35,913 bases of DNA, taken from assembly GCA_016875535.1 (NCBI GenBank), contig VGPF01000026.1:1-35913 (forward strand), given 5' to 3'. This document shows positions 1 through 35,646 of the stretch, one piece after another (the stretch's first letter is position 1; each line of letters opens with the position of its first letter). The notes under the pieces are model-generated. The model saw only the letters and a program-made list of their open reading frames with translations. It was not told the origin of the DNA and ran no database searches. The stretch comes from Chloroflexota bacterium. Lineage in GTDB: Bacteria > Chloroflexota > Dehalococcoidia > SHYB01. The position numbers and the translations under genes were made by a program.

Positions 1-271
1 ATCACTCCTCTTGCGGCGGCCGCACACCGGGCGTTCCGAACGCCTGAAAAAGGAGTACTCGCCCGAGCCATCAAGACTATCCGGGCCTGACGCGCCTCGT
101 CGCCGAAGGCCCGTTACATGATGTGGAGGGTGCCTGCTCTCCTGCCTAGCGGAGACCCCTCTGCCGTCCACGCGACCGTTTTTCCCGCCCTCTCTGCCCT
201 TCCCATTGCCACGTCCAACGATCACCCGTTCGGCGTACCTGGCGCGTCACCCTGCGGCCTGGGGCCGTTCT
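1..271. other. left-edge region without a convincing gene
   Basis: No recognisable gene lies here. A perfect small hairpin (GGCGTT-CCG-AACGCC, 29-43) and a possible longer one (CGGGCCT with AGGCCCG, about 81-113) are present, but neither is followed by a T-run. Plus-strand frame 1 is open from the window edge to a TGA at 88-90 (29 codons) and frame 2 is open to 121. Either could be the tail of a gene cut by the edge, but the translations are not recognisable. I see no tRNA, SRP RNA or RNase P signature. Confidence 0.4.
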
Positions 272-757
272 CTAGCCCGCCACGCCGACCTGGAAGGCGT
301 CATTGAGGGCGGACTTGGCGCGGGACTGGTCGGCCTCGCGGACGAGGCAGGTGATGCGCACTTCGCTGGTGCCGATGGCGAGGATGTTGACCTTGGCTTC
401 TCCCAGGGCTTTGAACATCTGGCCGACGTAGGCGGGGTCGTTGAGGATGCCGGTGCCGACGACCTGCACCTTGTAGAGCCGTTCCAGGGAATCGGCCTTG
501 CGCGCGCCGACGGCGGCCTTGAGGGATTCGAGGATGCGGCGCGTGGCGGCGGCATCGGCCTGGCGGACGGTGAAGGAGATGTCCGTGACCTTGTTGACGC
601 CGGCGTTCTGGAGGATGAGCTCCACGGAGATGCCGGCCTTGGCGACGGCGCCGAAGACCTGAGCGGCGATGCCTGGCTTGTCCGGCACGCCCTCCAGCTT
701 CATCAAGGCCCAGCCTGATTCCACGGTTATCTCTCGAACGCGCTGTCGTATCTCCAC
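272..757 (-). CDS. stand-alone double-ACT protein, aspartokinase regulatory type
   Basis: This 161-aa protein consists of two ACT domains (about residues 17-85 and 93-157) and nothing else. The first has VPDKPGIAAQVF and TDISFTV, the second NILAIGTSEVRITCLV. Both are hallmarks of the C-terminal amino-acid-binding part of aspartokinase (LysC), and the length matches the small beta subunit of alpha2beta2 aspartokinases. It presumably binds lysine or threonine and transmits feedback inhibition, but no kinase domain is attached. The GTG start at 757 is preceded by GAGGAG, and an in-frame TAG lies 14 codons upstream without another start codon, so it is a true separate gene here. It is last in the hom, LysRS-like, lysS cluster, 59 bp after lysS. 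Family assignment is firm; its partner enzyme is not visible in this window. Confidence 0.85.
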   Translation of the reverse strand: MEIRQRVREITVESGWALMKLEGVPDKPGIAAQVFGAVAKAGISVELILQNAGVNKVTDISFTVRQADAAATRRILESLKAAVGARKADSLERLYKVQVVGTGILNDPAYVGQMFKALGEAKVNILAIGTSEVRITCLVREADQSRAKSALNDAFQVGVAG

Positions 758-778
758 GCTGGTCTCCTCATAGGTCTC

Positions 779-799
779 GGGACGGGCTGAGCCCGTCCC
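779..799. repeat. perfect 10-bp inverted repeat between lysS and ACT gene
   Basis: GGGACGGGCT and AGCCCGTCCC are separated by one base in the 59-bp gap between lysS and the ACT-domain gene. No T-run follows on either strand, so it is not a typical intrinsic terminator. Its GGCTGAGCC core followed by CCCCTAC resembles the end of the direct repeats near 32.7 and 32.85 kb, suggesting a REP-like family of palindromes. It could also protect the lysS 3' end or cause partial termination before the ACT gene. Confidence 0.6.
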
Positions 800-816
800 C
801 TACTTGTTCTGTGCGA

Positions 817-2304
817 TCATTGGTCGGCCTGCTGGCGCTGCTGGGGGAAGAGGATGATATCGCGGACGCTGGTTGCCCCGGTGAGCAGCATGACGAGGCG
901 ATCGAGGCCGAAGCCGAGGCCGCCGGTGGGCGGCAGGCCGTACTCCAGGGCCAGGAGGTAGTCGTCGTCCATGGGCTGGGCCTCTTCATCGCCTGCGGCG
1001 GCGCGGCGCTTCTGGGCCTCGAACTGCTCGCGCTGGTAGGCCGGGTCGGAGAGCTCCGAATAGGCGTTGGCGACCTCCATGCCGCCGATGAAGGGCTCGA
1101 AGCGCTCGGCGAGGCGCGGGTCGGTGCGATGGCGCTTGGTGAGGGGGCAGAGGCCCGCGGGGAAATCAGTGATGAACGTCGGCTCGATGAGGTGCTCTTC
1201 CACCTTCTGGTCGAAGATTTCTCCCAGGACGTGCTCCCAGTCCATCTTCTCCATGCCGTCCGTCTTGACGCCTGCGCGTGAGGCGGCGGTGATGGCATCG
1301 GCCAGGGTGGAGACGCCGGAGACGTCCACGCCGGTGTATTCCTTGATGGCGTCAAAATAGGTGAGCCGCCGCCAAGGCTTCGAGAGGTCAATGGCGACCT
1401 CCTTGCCGTGGACGGGACGCGCGGGCAGAACCATCGAGCCGTTGAGCTCCCGGGCGAGGTGCTTATAGAGCTCTTCCAGGAGCGTCATCATGTCGTGGTA
1501 ATCGGCGAAGGCCTGGTAGAGCTCCACCATGGTGAACTCCGGGTTGTGGGTGGAGTCTATGCCTTCGTTGCGGAAGCAGTTGCCGATCTCAAAGACCTTA
1601 TCGAAGCCGCCGACGATGAGGCGCTTGAGGTAGAGCTCCGGGGCGATGCGGAGGTAGAGGTCGCGCTTCAGCTCGTTGTGGTGGGTGACGAAGGGCCGCG
1701 CCGCCGCGCCGCCATAGATGGGCTGGAGGATGGGCGTCTGCACTTCCACAAAGCCCTGGTTGTGCAGGAAGGAGCGGATGAGGGCGGCGACCTTGGAGCG
1801 CTTGAGGAAGAGCGTTCGCGCATCGGGCTCTGCCAGGAGGTGGAGGTAGCGCTGGCGGCGCATGCGCTCCAGGTCCTGGAGGCCGTGATACTTCTCCGGG
1901 AGAGGCTCGATGGCCTTGCAGAGGAGGGAGACCTTGGCGGCCTCCACGGTGAGTTCGCCGGTCCTGGTGGTAAAGAGGTGGCCTTCGATGCCGACGATGT
2001 CGCCCCGATCAATGAAGTCGCGGAAGATAGCAAAGTCCTTGGTCTTGTCCACGCTCACGTAGAGCTGGATCTTGGCGTCCTGGTCTTCGATGTGGGCGAA
2101 GTTGGCCTTGCCCATGCGGCGCACGCCCGTGATGCGCCCTGCCAGGGTGACGGCGATGCGCTCCTGGCTTGCCGGGTCGCGCCGCTCCCAGAGGGCGCGG
2201 GCCTCCGTGATGGTGTGGCTGCGGCGGAAGGTGTGGGGGTACGGATCTATGCCGCGCCGGCGCAGCTCGGCGGCCTTTTCGATGCGTGCGGAACGTTCGT
2301 CCAC
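817..2304 (-). CDS. lysS: lysyl-tRNA synthetase (class II)
   Basis: This 495-aa enzyme charges tRNA-Lys with lysine in the cytoplasm. The N-terminal OB-fold anticodon-binding domain covers about residues 50-130, followed by the class II catalytic core. Motif 1 ends in VEVQTPIL (about 187-193), motif 2 is FRNEG (244-248) with NPEFTMVE, and motif 3 is GLGFGLDRLVML (about 462-473). The lysine-pocket residues equivalent to E. coli N424 and E428 are present in VANAYSELSDP (N413, E417). Length is normal for bacterial LysS. The GTG start at 2304 has AGGAAA upstream. It lies 117 bp after the LysRS-like paralogue and 59 bp before the ACT protein, probably in one transcription unit with homoserine dehydrogenase. 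Confidence 0.97.
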   Translation of the reverse strand: MDERSARIEKAAELRRRGIDPYPHTFRRSHTITEARALWERRDPASQERIAVTLAGRITGVRRMGKANFAHIEDQDAKIQLYVSVDKTKDFAIFRDFIDRGDIVGIEGHLFTTRTGELTVEAAKVSLLCKAIEPLPEKYHGLQDLERMRRQRYLHLLAEPDARTLFLKRSKVAALIRSFLHNQGFVEVQTPILQPIYGGAAARPFVTHHNELKRDLYLRIAPELYLKRLIVGGFDKVFEIGNCFRNEGIDSTHNPEFTMVELYQAFADYHDMMTLLEELYKHLARELNGSMVLPARPVHGKEVAIDLSKPWRRLTYFDAIKEYTGVDVSGVSTLADAITAASRAGVKTDGMEKMDWEHVLGEIFDQKVEEHLIEPTFITDFPAGLCPLTKRHRTDPRLAERFEPFIGGMEVANAYSELSDPAYQREQFEAQKRRAAAGDEEAQPMDDDYLLALEYGLPPTGGLGFGLDRLVMLLTGATSVRDIILFPQQRQQADQ

Positions 2305-2421
2305 GAGATTTCCTGACTATCTTTTCCCGGCCGCGGCGCTCACAGAGAGGCGGCAAGCGCGGCAGACAGATTGCGATCGCGTCGTTCTAGGGTACTACGA
2401 ACGTTCCGACGGGGGAACTGG

Positions 2422-3573
2422 CTACCGCGATTTGAAGAGGTTGGGGAGCATGCGCTCCTGGCCGCCGCCATCGCTGCCGACGATGCCGAAGAGGCTGCCC
2501 GCCAGGCGATCCATATAGAGGCCCATGCCGATGACGGGCTTGGCCTGAGGCCACTTCTGCAGCTCGTCCAGGAAGTCTTCGTCCGGCTCCGGCAGGAGGC
2601 CGTAGCCCAGGCGGCGCAGGGCGTCCAGGTGCTTGAAGCGCACCATCTGCGCCTTGGGGTCCATCAGCTCGCGCTGGCCCAGGGCGATGCGCGCGCCGTT
2701 GTGGTAGAGCTCCCACTTCTGGGCGTGGACGCCGTCTTCTGATTCCGCGAGGGGGCTGGACTCCAGGGGCGTATCGTAGACGAGGACGGGCCCGGCAAGC
2801 TTGGGCGCGATCTTGGCGCGGAAGGCGTGGTCAATATAGTCGTACCAGTAGCCCTGGGGGCCGGTGCGGAGCCTGGCCTCCATGCCGCCGGCCTTATAGG
2901 CCAGGGCGGCGGAGGCATCGCGGAGCGCGGCGTCGCCGGCGCGGCTCTCCAGCGCGGCGGCGTGGAGGGCGACGCGGTCGCCCTTGGCGGGCTTGGCCTT
3001 GGGCTGGAGGAGGGCTTCCAGGTCGAACTTCGGGTCTATGCTCTTGAGCAGGTCGGCGTAGCGGGCGCGCTGCCAGGGGCTTTTGAGGCTCTTGATGCCG
3101 GCCTTCGCCTCGGGCGATTTCGCCATGCGGCCCTTTTCGAGGGCGGCGGCGGAGCGCTCGATGACCTTGCCCAGGAGCTTCTCCAGCGACCAGGGGTCCT
3201 TGTCCGTTGCATAGAGCTCCAGCAAGGTGAACTCGGGACGGTCGAAGCTTTCGCGGGGGTTCGTCTCATCGAACTCATCGCGGAGGCAGAGGGCCAGCTC
3301 GAAGATCTTGCCTGCGCCCTTGGCCTGGAGGCTGACGAGGAGGCGCTTGAGGTAGAGCTCGGGGGCGGCGCGGAGCCAGAGACGTTCGCCCAGGGAACCG
3401 GAGAAGGTGCTGAAGCCGGAGCCCTTTTCGAAGCCGGAGAGCTTGCGGTGCAGCATGGGCGTCTGCACTTCGGCATAGCCCGCCCCGCTGAGGGCCTGGC
3501 GCGCGGCGCTGATGAGCGCCATCCGCCCCAGGACGAGGCTTGCATCGAGACCGGCAGTCTTACCAGCCGCCAT
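2422..3573 (-). CDS. LysRS-like class II synthetase paralogue lacking the anticodon domain
   Basis: This 383-aa protein is a class II aminoacyl-tRNA synthetase core without the N-terminal OB-fold, as in EpmA/GenX or other synthetase paralogues. Motif 1 is around residues 16-41 (YAEVQTPML), APELYLKRLLV at 70-80, motif 2 has R98 in LCLRDE and E114 in PEFTLLE, and motif 3 has R356 in GMGLYMDRL. The segment KWELYHNGARIALGQRELMDP (287-306) aligns with the LysRS lysine pocket. The glutamate is kept (E302), but the conserved asparagine is L298 and neighbouring residues are changed, and motif 3 has Tyr in place of a glycine. ATP activation looks possible, while the substrate may not be lysine. The start has AAGGAG directly after the homoserine dehydrogenase stop (11 bp gap), so the two are cotranscribed. 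Alternatives are an EF-P-type modifier, an amino-acid ligase or a regulatory paralogue. Confidence 0.8.
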   Translation of the reverse strand: MAAGKTAGLDASLVLGRMALISAARQALSGAGYAEVQTPMLHRKLSGFEKGSGFSTFSGSLGERLWLRAAPELYLKRLLVSLQAKGAGKIFELALCLRDEFDETNPRESFDRPEFTLLELYATDKDPWSLEKLLGKVIERSAAALEKGRMAKSPEAKAGIKSLKSPWQRARYADLLKSIDPKFDLEALLQPKAKPAKGDRVALHAAALESRAGDAALRDASAALAYKAGGMEARLRTGPQGYWYDYIDHAFRAKIAPKLAGPVLVYDTPLESSPLAESEDGVHAQKWELYHNGARIALGQRELMDPKAQMVRFKHLDALRRLGYGLLPEPDEDFLDELQKWPQAKPVIGMGLYMDRLAGSLFGIVGSDGGGQERMLPNLFKSR

Positions 3574-3584
3574 AATCGGCTCCT

Positions 3585-5153
3585 TTAGGCCTTGCCCTTG
3601 GGCGTCTCTTCGAAGCAGGCGCCGCTCATGATGGGCAGGTAGAGGATATCGGGCGAGAGGGCGCCCGGAGGCGTTTCACGGATGACGGCCTGCAGGGCGC
3701 GCTCCACCGCATTGAGCGAAGCGGGCTCCGTGGTGAAGTAGAGGTAGGCGGGAGCGCGCTCGAAGCCCTGGCCGGCCCTGATGGTGATGCCGCTCCCCCC
3801 AAGGTGCGCCGCGATGGTGGTGGCGATGGCGGAGCCGGATGTGCGGTTCACAAAGCGCAGGAGGTAGGGGGTCTTGAGGCTCTCCGCCCTGGTGAGGGAG
3901 GGCCCGTGGCCGTAGGGCTGAGTGCGGCTGAAGGCGCTGGTGGTGTAGGAGTAGAGCGGCGCCTGCTCCTGCGCGGAATCGCGCTTGCCGGCCACGGCGA
4001 TCTGCCGGGCGCAGAAGAGTATATCGGCGATGACGGAGGAGGCGGTCTCGGGGCCGCCCGCGCCGGGGCCGTTGAGAAAGATATCGTAGGCCTTGGCGCC
4101 CATGCCGTTGGCGGAGACGGGCGATTCCGTCCTGAGGAGGGCGGCGTTGCCGGAGCCTTCCACGCGCGCCAGCGGGTGGGACTTGGGGACGGCGGCGGGC
4201 TGGACCCAGGCCACCACGTGGCCGCCGGTCATCTGCGCGCCGGCCAGGAGCTTGGGGGCGTAGCCCAGCTGCTCCAGGAAGTGGAGGTCGGGCGCGTCAA
4301 AGATAGCGCGGCTGCCCAGGGTGCTGCCGGGGGCGCTGCCCTGGCGGGCGATGCCCCGGACGTAGACGTCCTTGGGCTTCACGCGCACGCCGAAGGCAAG
4401 CCCGGCCAGGATGATGATCTTGCTCTGCGCATCTTCGCCGTAGACGTCCGCGGCGGGGTCGGCCTCGGCAAGGCCGGCCTTCTGGGCCTCCACGACGGCG
4501 TTGGGGTAGGCTTGGTCTGCGCCTCCGCCGTTTAAGGCGGCATCGCGCATCTTGGAGAGGATGAAGTTGGTGGTGCCGTTGATGATGGCCAGCATGCCGG
4601 TGATGCGCCCGCCGATGGCCGCTCCCATCACCTGCACCACAGGCATGCCGCCGCCGACGGCCGCCTCGCAGGCCAGGACGGCGCCGCGGGACTGGGCCAG
4701 CTTGACCAGCTCATAGCCGCTGCGACTGAGGACCTTTTTGTTGGCGGTGACGACGCTCTTGCCGAGCCAGAGGGACTCTTCGATCATCGCCTCCGCCACG
4801 GGAGAGCCGGTGACCTCGACGACGATGTCCACCTTTGGGTCGCGGACGATGGCGCGCCAGCCGGGGCCGTGGCCATCGTCATCGGCGTAAAAGCGAGGCT
4901 TGTTGCGCTCGTCCCTGCTGACGACCTTTGCGATGGCCTCTTCCGAAGCGGCGTTGGGGTTCTTCCGCGTCCGCCGCGATGCGCTCCAGAGGCGCACCTT
5001 GGCGACCGACGGCTCGCCGAAGCGCGCGCCGGGGATAGGCACCTCCAGCGGGCCCTTGGCGAAGAAGTCCAGGACGGCAGAGCCGACGACGCCGACGCCG
5101 ATGAGGCCGACGTTGATTTCCAGCGGCTTCGCCGATGTGCCTTTCGTCGTCAC
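3585..5153 (-). CDS. hom: homoserine dehydrogenase
   Basis: This 522-aa enzyme reduces aspartate semialdehyde to homoserine with NAD(P)H, the branch point to threonine and methionine. The N-terminal Rossmann fold has GVGVVG (about 19-24) and a nucleotide-binding VEVTG and TANKKVLS. The catalytic domain has GGGMPV, INGTTNFIL and AGLAEADPAADVYGEDAQSK, which includes the substrate-binding acidic residues and the catalytic lysine. The C-terminal ~90 residues (from YLLRFVNRTSG) look like an ACT domain, expected for feedback inhibition. It is somewhat longer than the usual ~430 aa, with an insertion in the N-terminal third. The GTG start at 5153 follows a TGGAG-like site, and a promoter is visible at 5210-5238. 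It heads the minus-strand cluster with the LysRS-like gene, lysS and the ACT protein. Confidence 0.95.
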   Translation of the reverse strand: MTTKGTSAKPLEINVGLIGVGVVGSAVLDFFAKGPLEVPIPGARFGEPSVAKVRLWSASRRTRKNPNAASEEAIAKVVSRDERNKPRFYADDDGHGPGWRAIVRDPKVDIVVEVTGSPVAEAMIEESLWLGKSVVTANKKVLSRSGYELVKLAQSRGAVLACEAAVGGGMPVVQVMGAAIGGRITGMLAIINGTTNFILSKMRDAALNGGGADQAYPNAVVEAQKAGLAEADPAADVYGEDAQSKIIILAGLAFGVRVKPKDVYVRGIARQGSAPGSTLGSRAIFDAPDLHFLEQLGYAPKLLAGAQMTGGHVVAWVQPAAVPKSHPLARVEGSGNAALLRTESPVSANGMGAKAYDIFLNGPGAGGPETASSVIADILFCARQIAVAGKRDSAQEQAPLYSYTTSAFSRTQPYGHGPSLTRAESLKTPYLLRFVNRTSGSAIATTIAAHLGGSGITIRAGQGFERAPAYLYFTTEPASLNAVERALQAVIRETPPGALSPDILYLPIMSGACFEETPKGKA

Positions 5154-5209
5154 AGCAGTGCGGCTCCAGAGGGAAATGCGGTCGCGAGACAGTGGTGCAT
5201 AGGTTCTGT

Positions 5210-5238
5210 ATTCTACGCGGCATAGGAGGGGCCTTCAA
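5210..5238 (-). promoter_or_regulatory. sigma70-type promoter of the hom cluster
   Basis: Read on the minus strand this is TTGAAG (5238-5233), a 17-bp spacer, then TAGAAT (5215-5210). The expected transcription start is near 5203, leaving a leader of about 50 nt before the hom GTG codon at 5153. Box sequences and spacing are close to the housekeeping consensus. Confidence 0.6.
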
Positions 5239-5403
5239 GGAAATTCTGTGTGAATGCAGGTAGCCTTGGAACAGGACATAAGGCCCACCCGAATCTGTTG
5301 GACGGACATAATCTTAGACTTGGACTAAAGGGGCTTTCGCTCATTCGTGCTACCCTAGTTGTGGCTGGCCTACAGAAGCGCGGCGGCCGCTAGCGAGGCA
5401 GAA

Positions 5404-6204
5404 GTGTCGAAGGCGAAGGCGCGAGAGATAGAACGTCGGCTGGATGTTGCCATAACCATTGGGCTGGAAGCGGCCCGCGGCACCCTGCGGCCCTTCTATA
5501 AGGGCAAGCCGAAGATCGTCACGAAGGCGGACGGCACGCCCGTCACGGAGGCAGATCGCCGGGCGGAGCAATACCTTCGCCGGGCCATCCGCAAGGCCTT
5601 CCCAAAGGATGGGGTCTTGGGCGAAGAGTATGGCGAGACGAAGGGAAGCTCCGGCTTTCGCTGGATCGTTGACCCGATAGACGGCACGCAGTCGTTCGTG
5701 CGGGGGGTGCCGCTCTATGGGACGCTGGTGGGCGTTGAGCTGGATGGGGATGCCTGCATCGGCGTCATCGTGGCGCCGGCGCTGGATGAGTACGTCTATG
5801 CCGCCAAGGGCCGGGGCGCATGGTGGGTGGCCCGTGGAGGCCGCCCCAAGCGGGCCCGTGTCTCCACCACGGCGCGGCTTGCGGATGCGCTGCTGTGCAT
5901 CACCTCCGTCGGCGGCTTTGCGGATGCCGGTCGTGAAGGGGCGCTGGCGGGCGTTCAGCGGGCGGTCAAGCGCATCCGAGGCTTCGGCGATTGCTACGGC
6001 TATCTGCTCGTGGCGACGGGCCGGAGCGATGCGATGGCGGACCCCGAGATGTCGCTCTGGGATAACGCGGCGCTCAAGCAGGTGATCGAAGAGGCGGGCG
6101 GGCGCTTCACCGACTGGACGGGCAAGGCGACGATCTACGGCAAGGACGCTGCAGCCACCAACGGCAGGCTGCACGCGGCGCTGCTCAAGGCGCTGAACGG
6201 CTAG
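5404..6204 (+). CDS. inositol-monophosphatase-family phosphatase, probably histidinol-phosphatase type
   Basis: This metal-dependent phosphatase of the IMPase superfamily has GEEYG, WIVDPIDGTQSF and SLWDNAA, which carry the Mg2+ ligands and substrate-binding residues. The stretch after the DPIDGT motif (SFVRGVPLYGTLVGVEL) resembles IMPase-type histidinol-phosphatases (HisN), which give histidinol in histidine synthesis. The same fold also dephosphorylates inositol-1-phosphate, and an inositol-1-phosphate synthase is encoded at 32.9 kb, so that role is possible. The frame opens with a TTG at 5359. I prefer the GTG at 5404, which has GAGG five bases before it and gives 266 aa, the normal family length. 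It is transcribed away from the hom cluster and precedes rlmD by 32 bp. Confidence 0.85.
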   Translation: MSKAKAREIERRLDVAITIGLEAARGTLRPFYKGKPKIVTKADGTPVTEADRRAEQYLRRAIRKAFPKDGVLGEEYGETKGSSGFRWIVDPIDGTQSFVRGVPLYGTLVGVELDGDACIGVIVAPALDEYVYAAKGRGAWWVARGGRPKRARVSTTARLADALLCITSVGGFADAGREGALAGVQRAVKRIRGFGDCYGYLLVATGRSDAMADPEMSLWDNAALKQVIEEAGGRFTDWTGKATIYGKDAAATNGRLHAALLKALNG

Positions 6205-6218
6205 CCGCCGCGCTCCTC

Positions 6219-6227
6219 TGCTATAGT
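6219..6227 (+). promoter_or_regulatory. extended -10 box directly before rlmD
   Basis: TGCTATAGT is an extended -10 element ending 9 bp before the ATG at 6237. Initiation would fall within a few bases of the start codon. The only Shine-Dalgarno candidates are absent (the leader reads TTTTCCTCCT), so a near-leaderless mRNA is expected. Confidence 0.45.
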
Positions 6228-6236
6228 TTTCCTCCT

Positions 6237-7442
6237 ATGGCCAAGAATAGGCGCAAGCCGCTCGACCCTGTTGACGTGCAGCTCACCATCGAAGAGATGG
6301 CCTTTATGGGCGAAGGCCTGGCGCGCCACGGCGACGACCTGGTCTACGTGGCGAACACGATCCAGGGCGAAGAGGTCATCGCGACGCTGCGGTGGAAGAG
6401 CCGTCGCTACCTGGAGGCGGAGGTGAAGGAGATCCTGAAGCCTTCGCCGCACCGGGTGACGCCGCCCTGCCGCTATTACGGCGAATGCACCGGGTGCCAG
6501 TGGCAGCACATCGCCTACCCCCACCAGCTTGAGCTGAAGGCGAAGCTCGTGGCCGATCAGCTGCGTCGGGTGGGAGGCTTCACGGAGGCGATCGTGCGGC
6601 CGACGATCGGCTGTGAGGAGCCGTGGGCCTACCGCAACCACGCGCGCTTCACCGTGCGCCGGGAGAGCGGCCAGCTGGGCTTTGTCCACCGGAGCCGCCA
6701 CCGCTTTGTGCGGATAGACCACTGCCTGATCATGGAGGCCGGGGTGAACCGGCTCCTGGGCCAGCTCCAGGAGCGCTGCGGCGAGACGACCCAGCTCTCC
6801 ATCCGCTACGGGGTGAAGACGGACTCCTTCCTCATCCAGCCGACGCTGAAATCGGACAAGGTCACGGTGCCGACGGGCCAAAAGCACTATGAAGAGGAGA
6901 TGCTGGGCAGGCGCTTCCGGGTCGCTTCGCCATCGTTTTTCCAGGTGAATGTGCGCCAGGCGGAGCGGCTCATCGGCGTGGTGCGGGAGGCGCTGTCGCT
7001 CACCGGACGGGAGACGCTGGTGGATGCCTATGCGGGAGTGGGCACCTTCGCGGCGCTGCTCGCGCCTTCGGCGCGGCAGGTCATCGCCATCGAAGAGTCG
7101 TCATCGGCGGTGGCGGATGCGCGGCTCAACATCGAAGGGCTGGCGAATGTGACGCTGGCGGAGGGGAAGACGGAGGAGGTGATGGCGCAGATGGCGGAGC
7201 GGCCCGATGCGGTGATCCTGGACCCGCCGCGCACGGGCTGTCATAAGACGACGCTCGATTCCCTGGTGCGCCTGCAGCCGCCGCGTGTGGCCTACGTCTC
7301 CTGCGACCCGGAAAGCCTGGCGCGCGACCTGAAGGTGCTGTGCGCGAGCGGCTATGAGCTCATCGAAGTGCAGCCGGTGGACATGTTCCCGCACACGTAC
7401 CACATCGAAGCGGTGGCGAACCTGCGGTGGCGGGGCGGCTAG
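6237..7442 (+). CDS. rlmD: 23S rRNA (uracil-C5)-methyltransferase, RlmD/TrmA family
   Basis: This 401-aa SAM-dependent RNA methyltransferase makes 5-methyluridine in rRNA or tRNA. An N-terminal TRAM-like RNA-binding domain (about 12-68) is followed by iron-sulfur cysteines C78, C84, C87 and C163, the [4Fe-4S] pattern of RlmD-type enzymes. The SAM motif is VDAYAGVGTFAALL (about 262-275), then DPPRTGC and the catalytic cysteine C356 in YVSCDPESLARDL. RlmD targets 23S rRNA in E. coli, but TrmA/RlmCD-type specificity cannot be told from sequence alone. Its TAG overlaps the stop of the convergent minus-strand gene by 4 bp. No ribosome-binding site is visible, and a -10 box ends 9 bp before ATG. 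Confidence 0.9.
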   Translation: MAKNRRKPLDPVDVQLTIEEMAFMGEGLARHGDDLVYVANTIQGEEVIATLRWKSRRYLEAEVKEILKPSPHRVTPPCRYYGECTGCQWQHIAYPHQLELKAKLVADQLRRVGGFTEAIVRPTIGCEEPWAYRNHARFTVRRESGQLGFVHRSRHRFVRIDHCLIMEAGVNRLLGQLQERCGETTQLSIRYGVKTDSFLIQPTLKSDKVTVPTGQKHYEEEMLGRRFRVASPSFFQVNVRQAERLIGVVREALSLTGRETLVDAYAGVGTFAALLAPSARQVIAIEESSSAVADARLNIEGLANVTLAEGKTEEVMAQMAERPDAVILDPPRTGCHKTTLDSLVRLQPPRVAYVSCDPESLARDLKVLCASGYELIEVQPVDMFPHTYHIEAVANLRWRGG

Positions 7443-8017
7443 CTTTCTCCGCCGGACTTCCGCTCCCACATGGTGAAGAACTGGTTGGAATCGCCGGTGA
7501 CGATGTTGCGCAGCTCCTGCCGCTCTTTCTCGGCGACGGCGCTGCGCTCCTTGGCCGCCAGCTGCGCGAAGGTCTTGCCGCACGCCGCCACGAAGTCGTC
7601 GGCGTACTTGCCGTCGAAGAAAGCCTCGTTCGCCAGGAGCAAGTCCTCTTCGCTCATGGAGAGGAGGGCGCTTTCGGCAATGATGACGGAGATGCGCACA
7701 TCGCCGTGCTTGCCCGGACCGGGGAAGAGGCGCTGGATGGCGGCCATGCCCTTGTCCTGCAGGACCACCTGGAGCGCCATGGGCAGGGCCATCGCCTTGA
7801 GGAAGCCGTTCCCCTGGGCGTGGAGGATCTTGGAGAAGGCCTCCTCCACCTCCCGGTAGTATTCGGGAGTCATGATCTCGTCCGCCCTCACCACGCGCAT
7901 GGTGGGGTTCGCCTCATTGCGCACATCCACAACGAGGAGGCAGTCAATGTTGGGAAAGGCGCAGACGTGGACGTCCGCGCTTTCGATGATGCTGCCGCTC
8001 TGCTCAGCTTCGCTCAC
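7439..8017 (-). CDS. conserved-looking hypothetical protein
   Basis: I do not recognise this 192-aa soluble protein. It starts MSEAEQSGSI, has a mixed alpha/beta N-terminal half (HVCAFPNIDCLLVVDVRNE) and an acidic, helical C-terminal half with many charged residues. No signal peptide, membrane segment or catalytic motif is evident. The GTG start at 8017 is preceded by AAGGAA, and a TATAAT box lies 26 bp upstream (8049-8044), between it and the cupin gene, so it probably has its own promoter. It converges on rlmD with a 4-bp overlap of the two genes. Confidence 0.7.
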   Translation of the reverse strand: MSEAEQSGSIIESADVHVCAFPNIDCLLVVDVRNEANPTMRVVRADEIMTPEYYREVEEAFSKILHAQGNGFLKAMALPMALQVVLQDKGMAAIQRLFPGPGKHGDVRISVIIAESALLSMSEEDLLLANEAFFDGKYADDFVAACGKTFAQLAAKERSAVAEKERQELRNIVTGDSNQFFTMWERKSGGES

Positions 8018-34902: not shown

Positions 34903-35646
34903 TTACTTTTTCCGGGCACGCGCCTTAATGGAGGCGAGGTCCTCTTGGAGGCTCGTGCGGTCGTACCGGCTTGGTATCTTCCGTCGCCTGAGGTGCTCCA
35001 TCATCGCTCTGACGGAAAGACCGGCTAGCTCCGCAGCCCTTTCAAGGCTCACTTCAGAGGTTCGGTAGAGTTCTTCGGCATGCTTTGTGCGGACACGACG
35101 GTACTCATGCTCCAGAATGCTCATGAGAAGGTCGCTCTCCCATCTGCCTGAGACAAGGGCCGACTCCCGTTCAACGCCTTCGCGGACGAAGCCGCATTTC
35201 TCGAAGGACTTGATGGCGCGGAGGTTGTACGAGAGGGTTCTAAGGTCAACGCGGTGGAGGTTCAAGCCTTTGAAGGCGTGTTGGAGCACCAATCGGACGG
35301 CCTCCGTTCCGAAGCCACGACCCCAGTAGTTGGGGTTGAAGATGCCGATGGCCAACCGGGCCCGTCGGTTCGGAGCATCCAGGCTGTGCAGCCTGACGTG
35401 GCCGATGCACCGGCTGTCCGCCTCGATCATCCATGAGAGGGAGTCTCTTCTGGTGGCAGCATACCATCGGTTAACCTCCTGCTTGAACGGCGGGAGGTCG
35501 TCTGGGTTGTTGCCGTACAGACGAACAAGCTCGGGGTTCCGGCCGCAGGCAAGCCAGTCTGTCTTATCGCTTGGGCGAGGCGGCCTGAGGAGAACATTGA
35601 GAACCCTAAGGGTGGGACGCTTTCTGATTCGGGGGAGCGCTGACAT
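34903..35646 (-). CDS. GNAT acetyltransferase (RimJ/RimL type) with a UPF0175-like C-terminal domain
   Basis: This 247-aa protein has a GNAT domain in residues ~15-180: ESA and beta strands (LLRPPRPSDKTDW, IGHVRLHSLD), the acetyl-CoA pyrophosphate loop YWGRGFGTEAV (107-117) and NLRAIKSFEKCGFVREGVER near the end. Residues ~186-242 are extra and read like a UPF0175 domain: ELYRTSEVSLERAAELAGL, then a helix and IPSRYDRTSLQEDLASI. UPF0175 proteins are small putative antitoxins/regulators usually stand-alone next to PIN-type genes. The fusion is unusual. The ATG at 35646 has no ribosome-binding site and overlaps an ATGCTTGC box. It follows the methyltransferase gene by 18 bp, so it is likely cotranscribed. 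Confidence 0.85.
   Translation of the reverse strand: MSALPRIRKRPTLRVLNVLLRPPRPSDKTDWLACGRNPELVRLYGNNPDDLPPFKQEVNRWYAATRRDSLSWMIEADSRCIGHVRLHSLDAPNRRARLAIGIFNPNYWGRGFGTEAVRLVLQHAFKGLNLHRVDLRTLSYNLRAIKSFEKCGFVREGVERESALVSGRWESDLLMSILEHEYRRVRTKHAEELYRTSEVSLERAAELAGLSVRAMMEHLRRRKIPSRYDRTSLQEDLASIKARARKK

Follow-up and report, generated by a model that had tools for sequence, protein, structure and literature searches.

HisZ – a catalytically inactive paralogue of histidyl-tRNA synthetase (HisRS) – mediates the inhibition by histidine of the short form of HisG, which is itself histidine-insensitive (PMC10795190; PMC9437257). SLIMP, which pairs with the mitochondrial seryl-tRNA synthetase (SerRS), provides a precedent for a synthetase pseudo-subunit (PMC9437257). 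Among relatives of class II lysyl-tRNA synthetase (LysRS; LysS or LysU), EpmA (PoxA, GenX) is a single-domain LysRS core, and one study takes single-domain tRNA-synt_2 proteins to be EpmA (PMC11611912). AsnA is a freestanding core of the subclass IIb type in amino-acid metabolism. Some homoserine dehydrogenases carry an ACT domain as an additional regulatory domain (PMC9728202).

Here, we describe a LysRS paralogue encoded on a 35,913-nucleotide contig of a Chloroflexota bacterium (VGPF01000026.1, assembly GCA_016875535.1), the whole of which is referred to below as the window. Like EpmA, it is a single-domain LysRS core of similar size without the OB fold, and like AsnA it is a freestanding subclass IIb-type core in a setting of amino-acid metabolism, although it differs from AsnA in keeping LysRS-type lysine residues. 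With HisZ it shares its organization: a synthetase core without an anticodon domain, tied to a pathway enzyme whose regulatory domain is missing or decayed. It is LysRS-derived and not HisRS-derived, however, and its partner would be homoserine dehydrogenase (Hom).

Gene order and family identity of the paralogue

The cluster lies on the minus strand and reads, in the direction of transcription, hom, paralogue, lysS, ACT gene. The hom gene (positions 5153-3585) encodes a 522-aa homoserine dehydrogenase with its catalytic regions kept (Pfam Homoserine_dh and NAD_binding_3), and is followed after 11 bp by the paralogue (3573-2422), a 383-aa class II catalytic core with an ATG start; the plus strand of 2422-3573 contains a stop. 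A further 117 bp separate it from lysS (2304-817), coding for a canonical class II LysRS of 495 aa with tRNA-synt_2 and tRNA_anti-codon OB-fold matches, and then comes a gene (757-272) for a freestanding 161-aa tandem-ACT protein that resembles the C-terminal regulatory half of aspartate kinase. The ORF and Pfam assignments agree with a preliminary description of this DNA, which had placed a second LysRS-like core without the anticodon-binding domain between hom and lysS, with an 11-bp gap to hom. Proximity in the genome is not proof of interaction, and the paralogue neighbours lysS as well as hom. Upstream of hom is a weak sigma-70-like promoter match (5210-5238, minus strand; 9 of 12 positions, a consensus match only). 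No tRNA was found in the window, and a search of positions 1-8000 for Rfam elements, such as a lysine riboswitch or T-box, found none at E values up to 1. Elsewhere in the window (34903-35646), one frame joins a GNAT acetyltransferase domain to a downstream UPF0175-like segment, an unusual fusion.

The sole Pfam match of the paralogue is to tRNA-synt_2 (PF00152; 88.9 bits against a gathering cut-off of 25). There is no match to the tRNA_anti-codon OB fold (PF01336), and residue 17 of the ORF is where the match to the catalytic core starts. It falls below both NCBIfam LysRS cut-offs (NF001756 and TIGR00499; 129.1 vs 468 and 99.5 vs 427.6 bits), and with the EpmA model TIGR00462 it scores 98.1 bits, about a third of the cut-off of 286.9. 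LysRS and EpmA are the only family models matched; HisRS models are not among them, and AsnA models give no match at E 0.001, although some AsnA-type models do match the neighbouring lysS. The paralogue is closest to class II LysRS, which gives the best family score, shares the catalytic fold, and is represented by the neighbouring LysS core at about 29% identity, but it differs in that the OB fold is missing, the loop of motif 2 is longer, and an insertion is larger.

An AlphaFold2 model built with a 50-row alignment has a pLDDT of 87 and a pTM of 0.89, and is weak at residues 103-107; a model with the four family rows alone (pLDDT 42) was not used. The model matches LysRS structures at Z scores of 31-35 (VIA Z about 35, over 332 residues at 2.6 Å), and only LysRS appears among the top 50 listed. 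The match is partly built in, because the 50-row alignment includes LysRS rows, and it shows compatibility with the LysRS fold rather more than it gives independent proof of it.

Distribution and evolution within the family

Rather than being confined to one genome, the paralogue and the order hom, paralogue, lysS, ACT gene are present in all four genomes examined of its GTDB family, across three genera, which is well beyond chance; the other three proteins are 83, 60 and 60% identical to that of the window. In one genome (G001) the contig breaks off within lysS, whose remainder is found together with the ACT gene on another contig. The gap between paralogue and hom is 10-11 bp in one genus and about 200 bp in G002. 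Between the paralogue and lysS of G002 is a 276-aa frame (L041:3776-4606) with no Pfam match, which may not be a gene.

Outside the family, the paralogue was not found in the one genome examined (75% complete) of a sister family, nor, at a threshold of 1e-30, in the non-family members (about 390) of a class sample of 393 genomes, and a phylum sample beyond the family gave only matches of ordinary LysRS length. Phyla other than that of the window were covered by one pattern scan for close relatives and by phage, plasmid and viral collections. The contig scan, using patterns from the window protein that would miss distant relatives, returned only the same-genus relative, and no close relative was present among viral contigs, PHROGs, and phage and plasmid records, and the best phage and plasmid matches stay below 31% identity across most of its length, the annotated ones being lysS, lysU or lysX. 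Where lysS loci of non-family genomes were sampled, the flanking 1.5 kb or so contain no match to hom or the ACT gene, so that the whole cluster looks like a family trait.

The dN/dS values of the paralogue (0.17 in the closely related pair and 0.18-0.36 in the remaining comparisons) are near those of hom and lysS, and by this measure it is under purifying selection as they are. In the tree, its stem has 5.3 substitutions per site and its tips are short, a shape that we read as a burst of change followed by constraint. A decaying lysS duplicate with no specific function could be expected from the many changes at otherwise invariant sites, but the low dN/dS, the intact frames in four genomes, and the identical switches across three genera largely refute this explanation, and we regard it as extremely improbable. 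Tree tests reject neither a clade with EpmA (p-AU 0.19) nor a grouping with the family's own LysS, given the stem of 5.3.

Active-site residues and the catalytic alternatives

We compared the four family paralogues with 46 LysRS cores of the same phylum, E. coli LysU and E. coli EpmA. Contact roles were taken from human LysRS, including the Mg2+ ligand E494, the lysine-stacking Y499, the epsilon-amino contact E501 and the beta-phosphate His (PMC11878792), and that of the ATP-contacting Asn from yeast and Plasmodium LysRS (PMC3391680). The LysU numbers used here are one above those of the preliminary description (N425 and E429 are its N424 and E428).

The motif 1-3 signatures and most of the lysine and AMP contacts of class II LysRS are kept. 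In all four proteins the lysine contacts include E72 and E119 to the alpha-amino group (LysU E241 and E279), the stacking Y121 (Y281), and E302 (codon 2668-2670, minus strand) to the epsilon-amino group (LysU E429); the adenine-stacking F115 (F275) and the arginine tweezers R98 and R356 (R263 and R481) are likewise unchanged. The motif-1 residues G32, E35, V36, T38 and P39 are also kept, and one reading of these is that the paralogue forms a heterodimer with the adjacent LysS through motif 1 and tunes LysS activity, much as a pseudo-subunit would. It adjoins lysS in 4/4 genomes, as such a partner might; LysRS normally homodimerises, however, the paralogue has no tRNA-binding domain, and a role confined to LysS would account neither for the association with hom nor for the ACT gene and a Hom lacking ACT. 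We consider a pseudo-subunit role improbable.

Two lysine-pocket switches are identical in the four family proteins: N425 to L298 (codon 2680-2682) and F427 – the aromatic residue stacking against the side chain of lysine – to Q300 (2674-2676); a further change in the paralogue is Ser to R301. On the ATP side, the four share E422 to R295 (2689-2691), which is at the Mg2+-ligand Glu in alignment numbering, H271 to D111 and N272 to R112 (3238-3243), at the beta-phosphate His and adjacent Asn, and G478 to Y353 (2515-2517) in motif 3; all of these codons are on the minus strand. N264 is also switched to D99 in all four. These four ATP-side positions are among those at which the paralogue departs from class II LysRS. 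One of the Mg2+ ligands, E288 (E/D), is kept, and the other is R295 in 4/4, in a column that is not perfectly invariant since Glu is present in 41 of the 46 sampled LysRS (5/46 have another residue). The G478 column is Gly in 46/46. The lysine and AMP half of the pocket is largely retained and the pyrophosphate half is rewired, and the switched acids and arginines of the latter could, we infer, pair with each other.

The residues R98, R356, L298 and E302, the LGQRE string, and the motif-3 Tyr are all as first described. The altered lysine pocket that had been proposed is real in its change of N425 to Leu, which is fixed in four genomes, but because the contacts to the alpha- and epsilon-amino groups (E241, E279, Y281 and E429) are all kept, the lysine end is less altered than was claimed. 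The larger changes are in the ATP triphosphate and Mg2+ site, of which only the Tyr had been caught. Of the two roles first suggested – activation of another aspartate-family amino acid or sensing of lysine – these ATP-site changes would favour the second, with lysine or an amino acid related to it as the ligand sensed, and speak less for activation of a new one.

Activation of a different amino acid or carrier (of the aspartate family, a diamino acid, or a small molecule) with Arg295 replacing Mg2+ would be another reading. An Arg near the alpha-phosphate could take the place of Mg2+, as Arg259 does in HisRS, and the paralogue may then be catalytic. The kept signature residues of motifs 1, 2 and 3 with the tweezers would serve adenylation, the changes of N425 to Leu, F427 to Gln and Ser to R301 would reshape the pocket, and strong conservation after such a long stem would fit a new, fixed function. 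All four triphosphate-side residues (His271, Asn272, Glu422 and Gly478) are switched, however, and the conserved cluster encodes no carrier or ligase partner; we think this activity rather unlikely.

The other catalytic possibility is an active EpmA-like ligase that attaches lysine, or a relative of it, to a protein; the Lys-tipped EF-P loop of these genomes would be the simplest target. The naming of single-domain tRNA-synt_2 proteins as EpmA, the kept lysine-recognition residues, and the EpmA clade left standing by the tree tests would all fit, as would the EF-P of the family, whose Lys-type loop (KAGKGNSEAR) exceeds that of E. coli EF-P by two residues and is carried by the sole EF-P found in G000, G002 and G003 (L089, L090 and L091); in most of the class the loop is of an Arg type (KxGRGSA). 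A +2 loop has been described as a mark of EfpL (PMC11611912). Against a ligase, Lys-type loops are also present in G014 and G033 (L092 and L094), where the paralogue was not detected (G033 being 71% complete). The EpmB/KamA family (TIGR00238) is absent from 5/5 genomes searched, including that of the window, with positive controls matching, and efp is not near the paralogue. In all four proteins EpmA A298 and N247 are replaced by G351 and L298, and the ATP-side residues are switched. A standard EpmA with an efp partner had been named as the case that would overturn the first interpretation, and by its score, 98 against 287 bits, the paralogue is not a standard EpmA. The EF-P evidence is mixed, and an EF-P ligase therefore stays the main catalytic rival, although we judge it unlikely.

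Hom, its ACT domain, and a possible sensing role

The C-terminal region of Hom at the position of the ACT domain (3585-3866, minus strand) shows no recognisable ACT domain and lacks a motif of the DxPGVL type. None of the family Homs (4/4 genomes) has an ACT match at E values up to 0.1, whereas ACT matches are present in 6/6 other class Homs scanned and a DxxGVL-type motif in all 14 non-family Homs aligned. The family Homs are 522-571 aa, compared with roughly 430-460 for most in the class, and keep the catalytic blocks; a single Hom match is present per genome in G000 and G001. Large family-specific insertions are located in the NAD domain and mid-protein (window 3585-5153; L041:587-2260; L042:9601-11313).

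In the freestanding ACT protein, unlike Hom, the first ACT unit keeps a motif of the PDKPG type. The protein is similar to an aspartokinase beta subunit, and the genome also encodes, on another contig (G000:C5), a full-length aspartate kinase that has an ACT half of its own. The loss of the ACT domain from the adjacent Hom, beside a freestanding aspartokinase-type ACT gene, is a new observation of this analysis.

The reading that we tentatively prefer, at somewhat less than even confidence, is that the paralogue is a HisZ-like, amino-acid-sensing regulatory subunit for Hom, and probably non-adenylating. We count for it the proximity to hom and the gene order, the division of the active site into kept and switched positions, the ACT-less Hom, and the separate ACT protein. 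Against it are the equally adjacent lysS, the gap to hom of about 200 bp in G002, an Arg295 that could stand in for Mg2+, the lack of Glu at that column in 5/46 LysRS, and the full-length aspartate kinase, which has not lost its ACT half. The part of the synthetase pocket that holds lysine and AMP would serve the paralogue as a ligand site; the protein would have given up Mg-ATP chemistry, and would contact and regulate the adjacent Hom, at the branch where aspartate semialdehyde is directed towards threonine and methionine instead of lysine. The freestanding ACT protein would perhaps act on Hom together with it. The paralogue is not itself a HisZ, and its action would be like that of HisZ with short-form HisG; the parallel with HisZ and HisG is close, in that a regulatory domain has decayed with a synthetase paralogue next door. 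A further proposal, which we hold more doubtfully, is that the HisZ principle arose independently a second time: a LysRS derivative would have lost ATP chemistry, taken the place of the ACT domain of Hom as its amino-acid-sensing subunit, and come to govern how flow divides between lysine and threonine/methionine synthesis. We found no LysRS-like regulator of Hom described in the literature.

The paralogue is a warning against naming every single-domain tRNA-synt_2 protein EpmA. If lysine sensing on behalf of Hom is true, then feedback subunits would have evolved from a synthetase core twice, in both cases next to an enzyme that lacks a regulatory domain of its own. The evolution of synthetase pockets into sensors would become directly testable, and the aspartate pathway would gain a control point.
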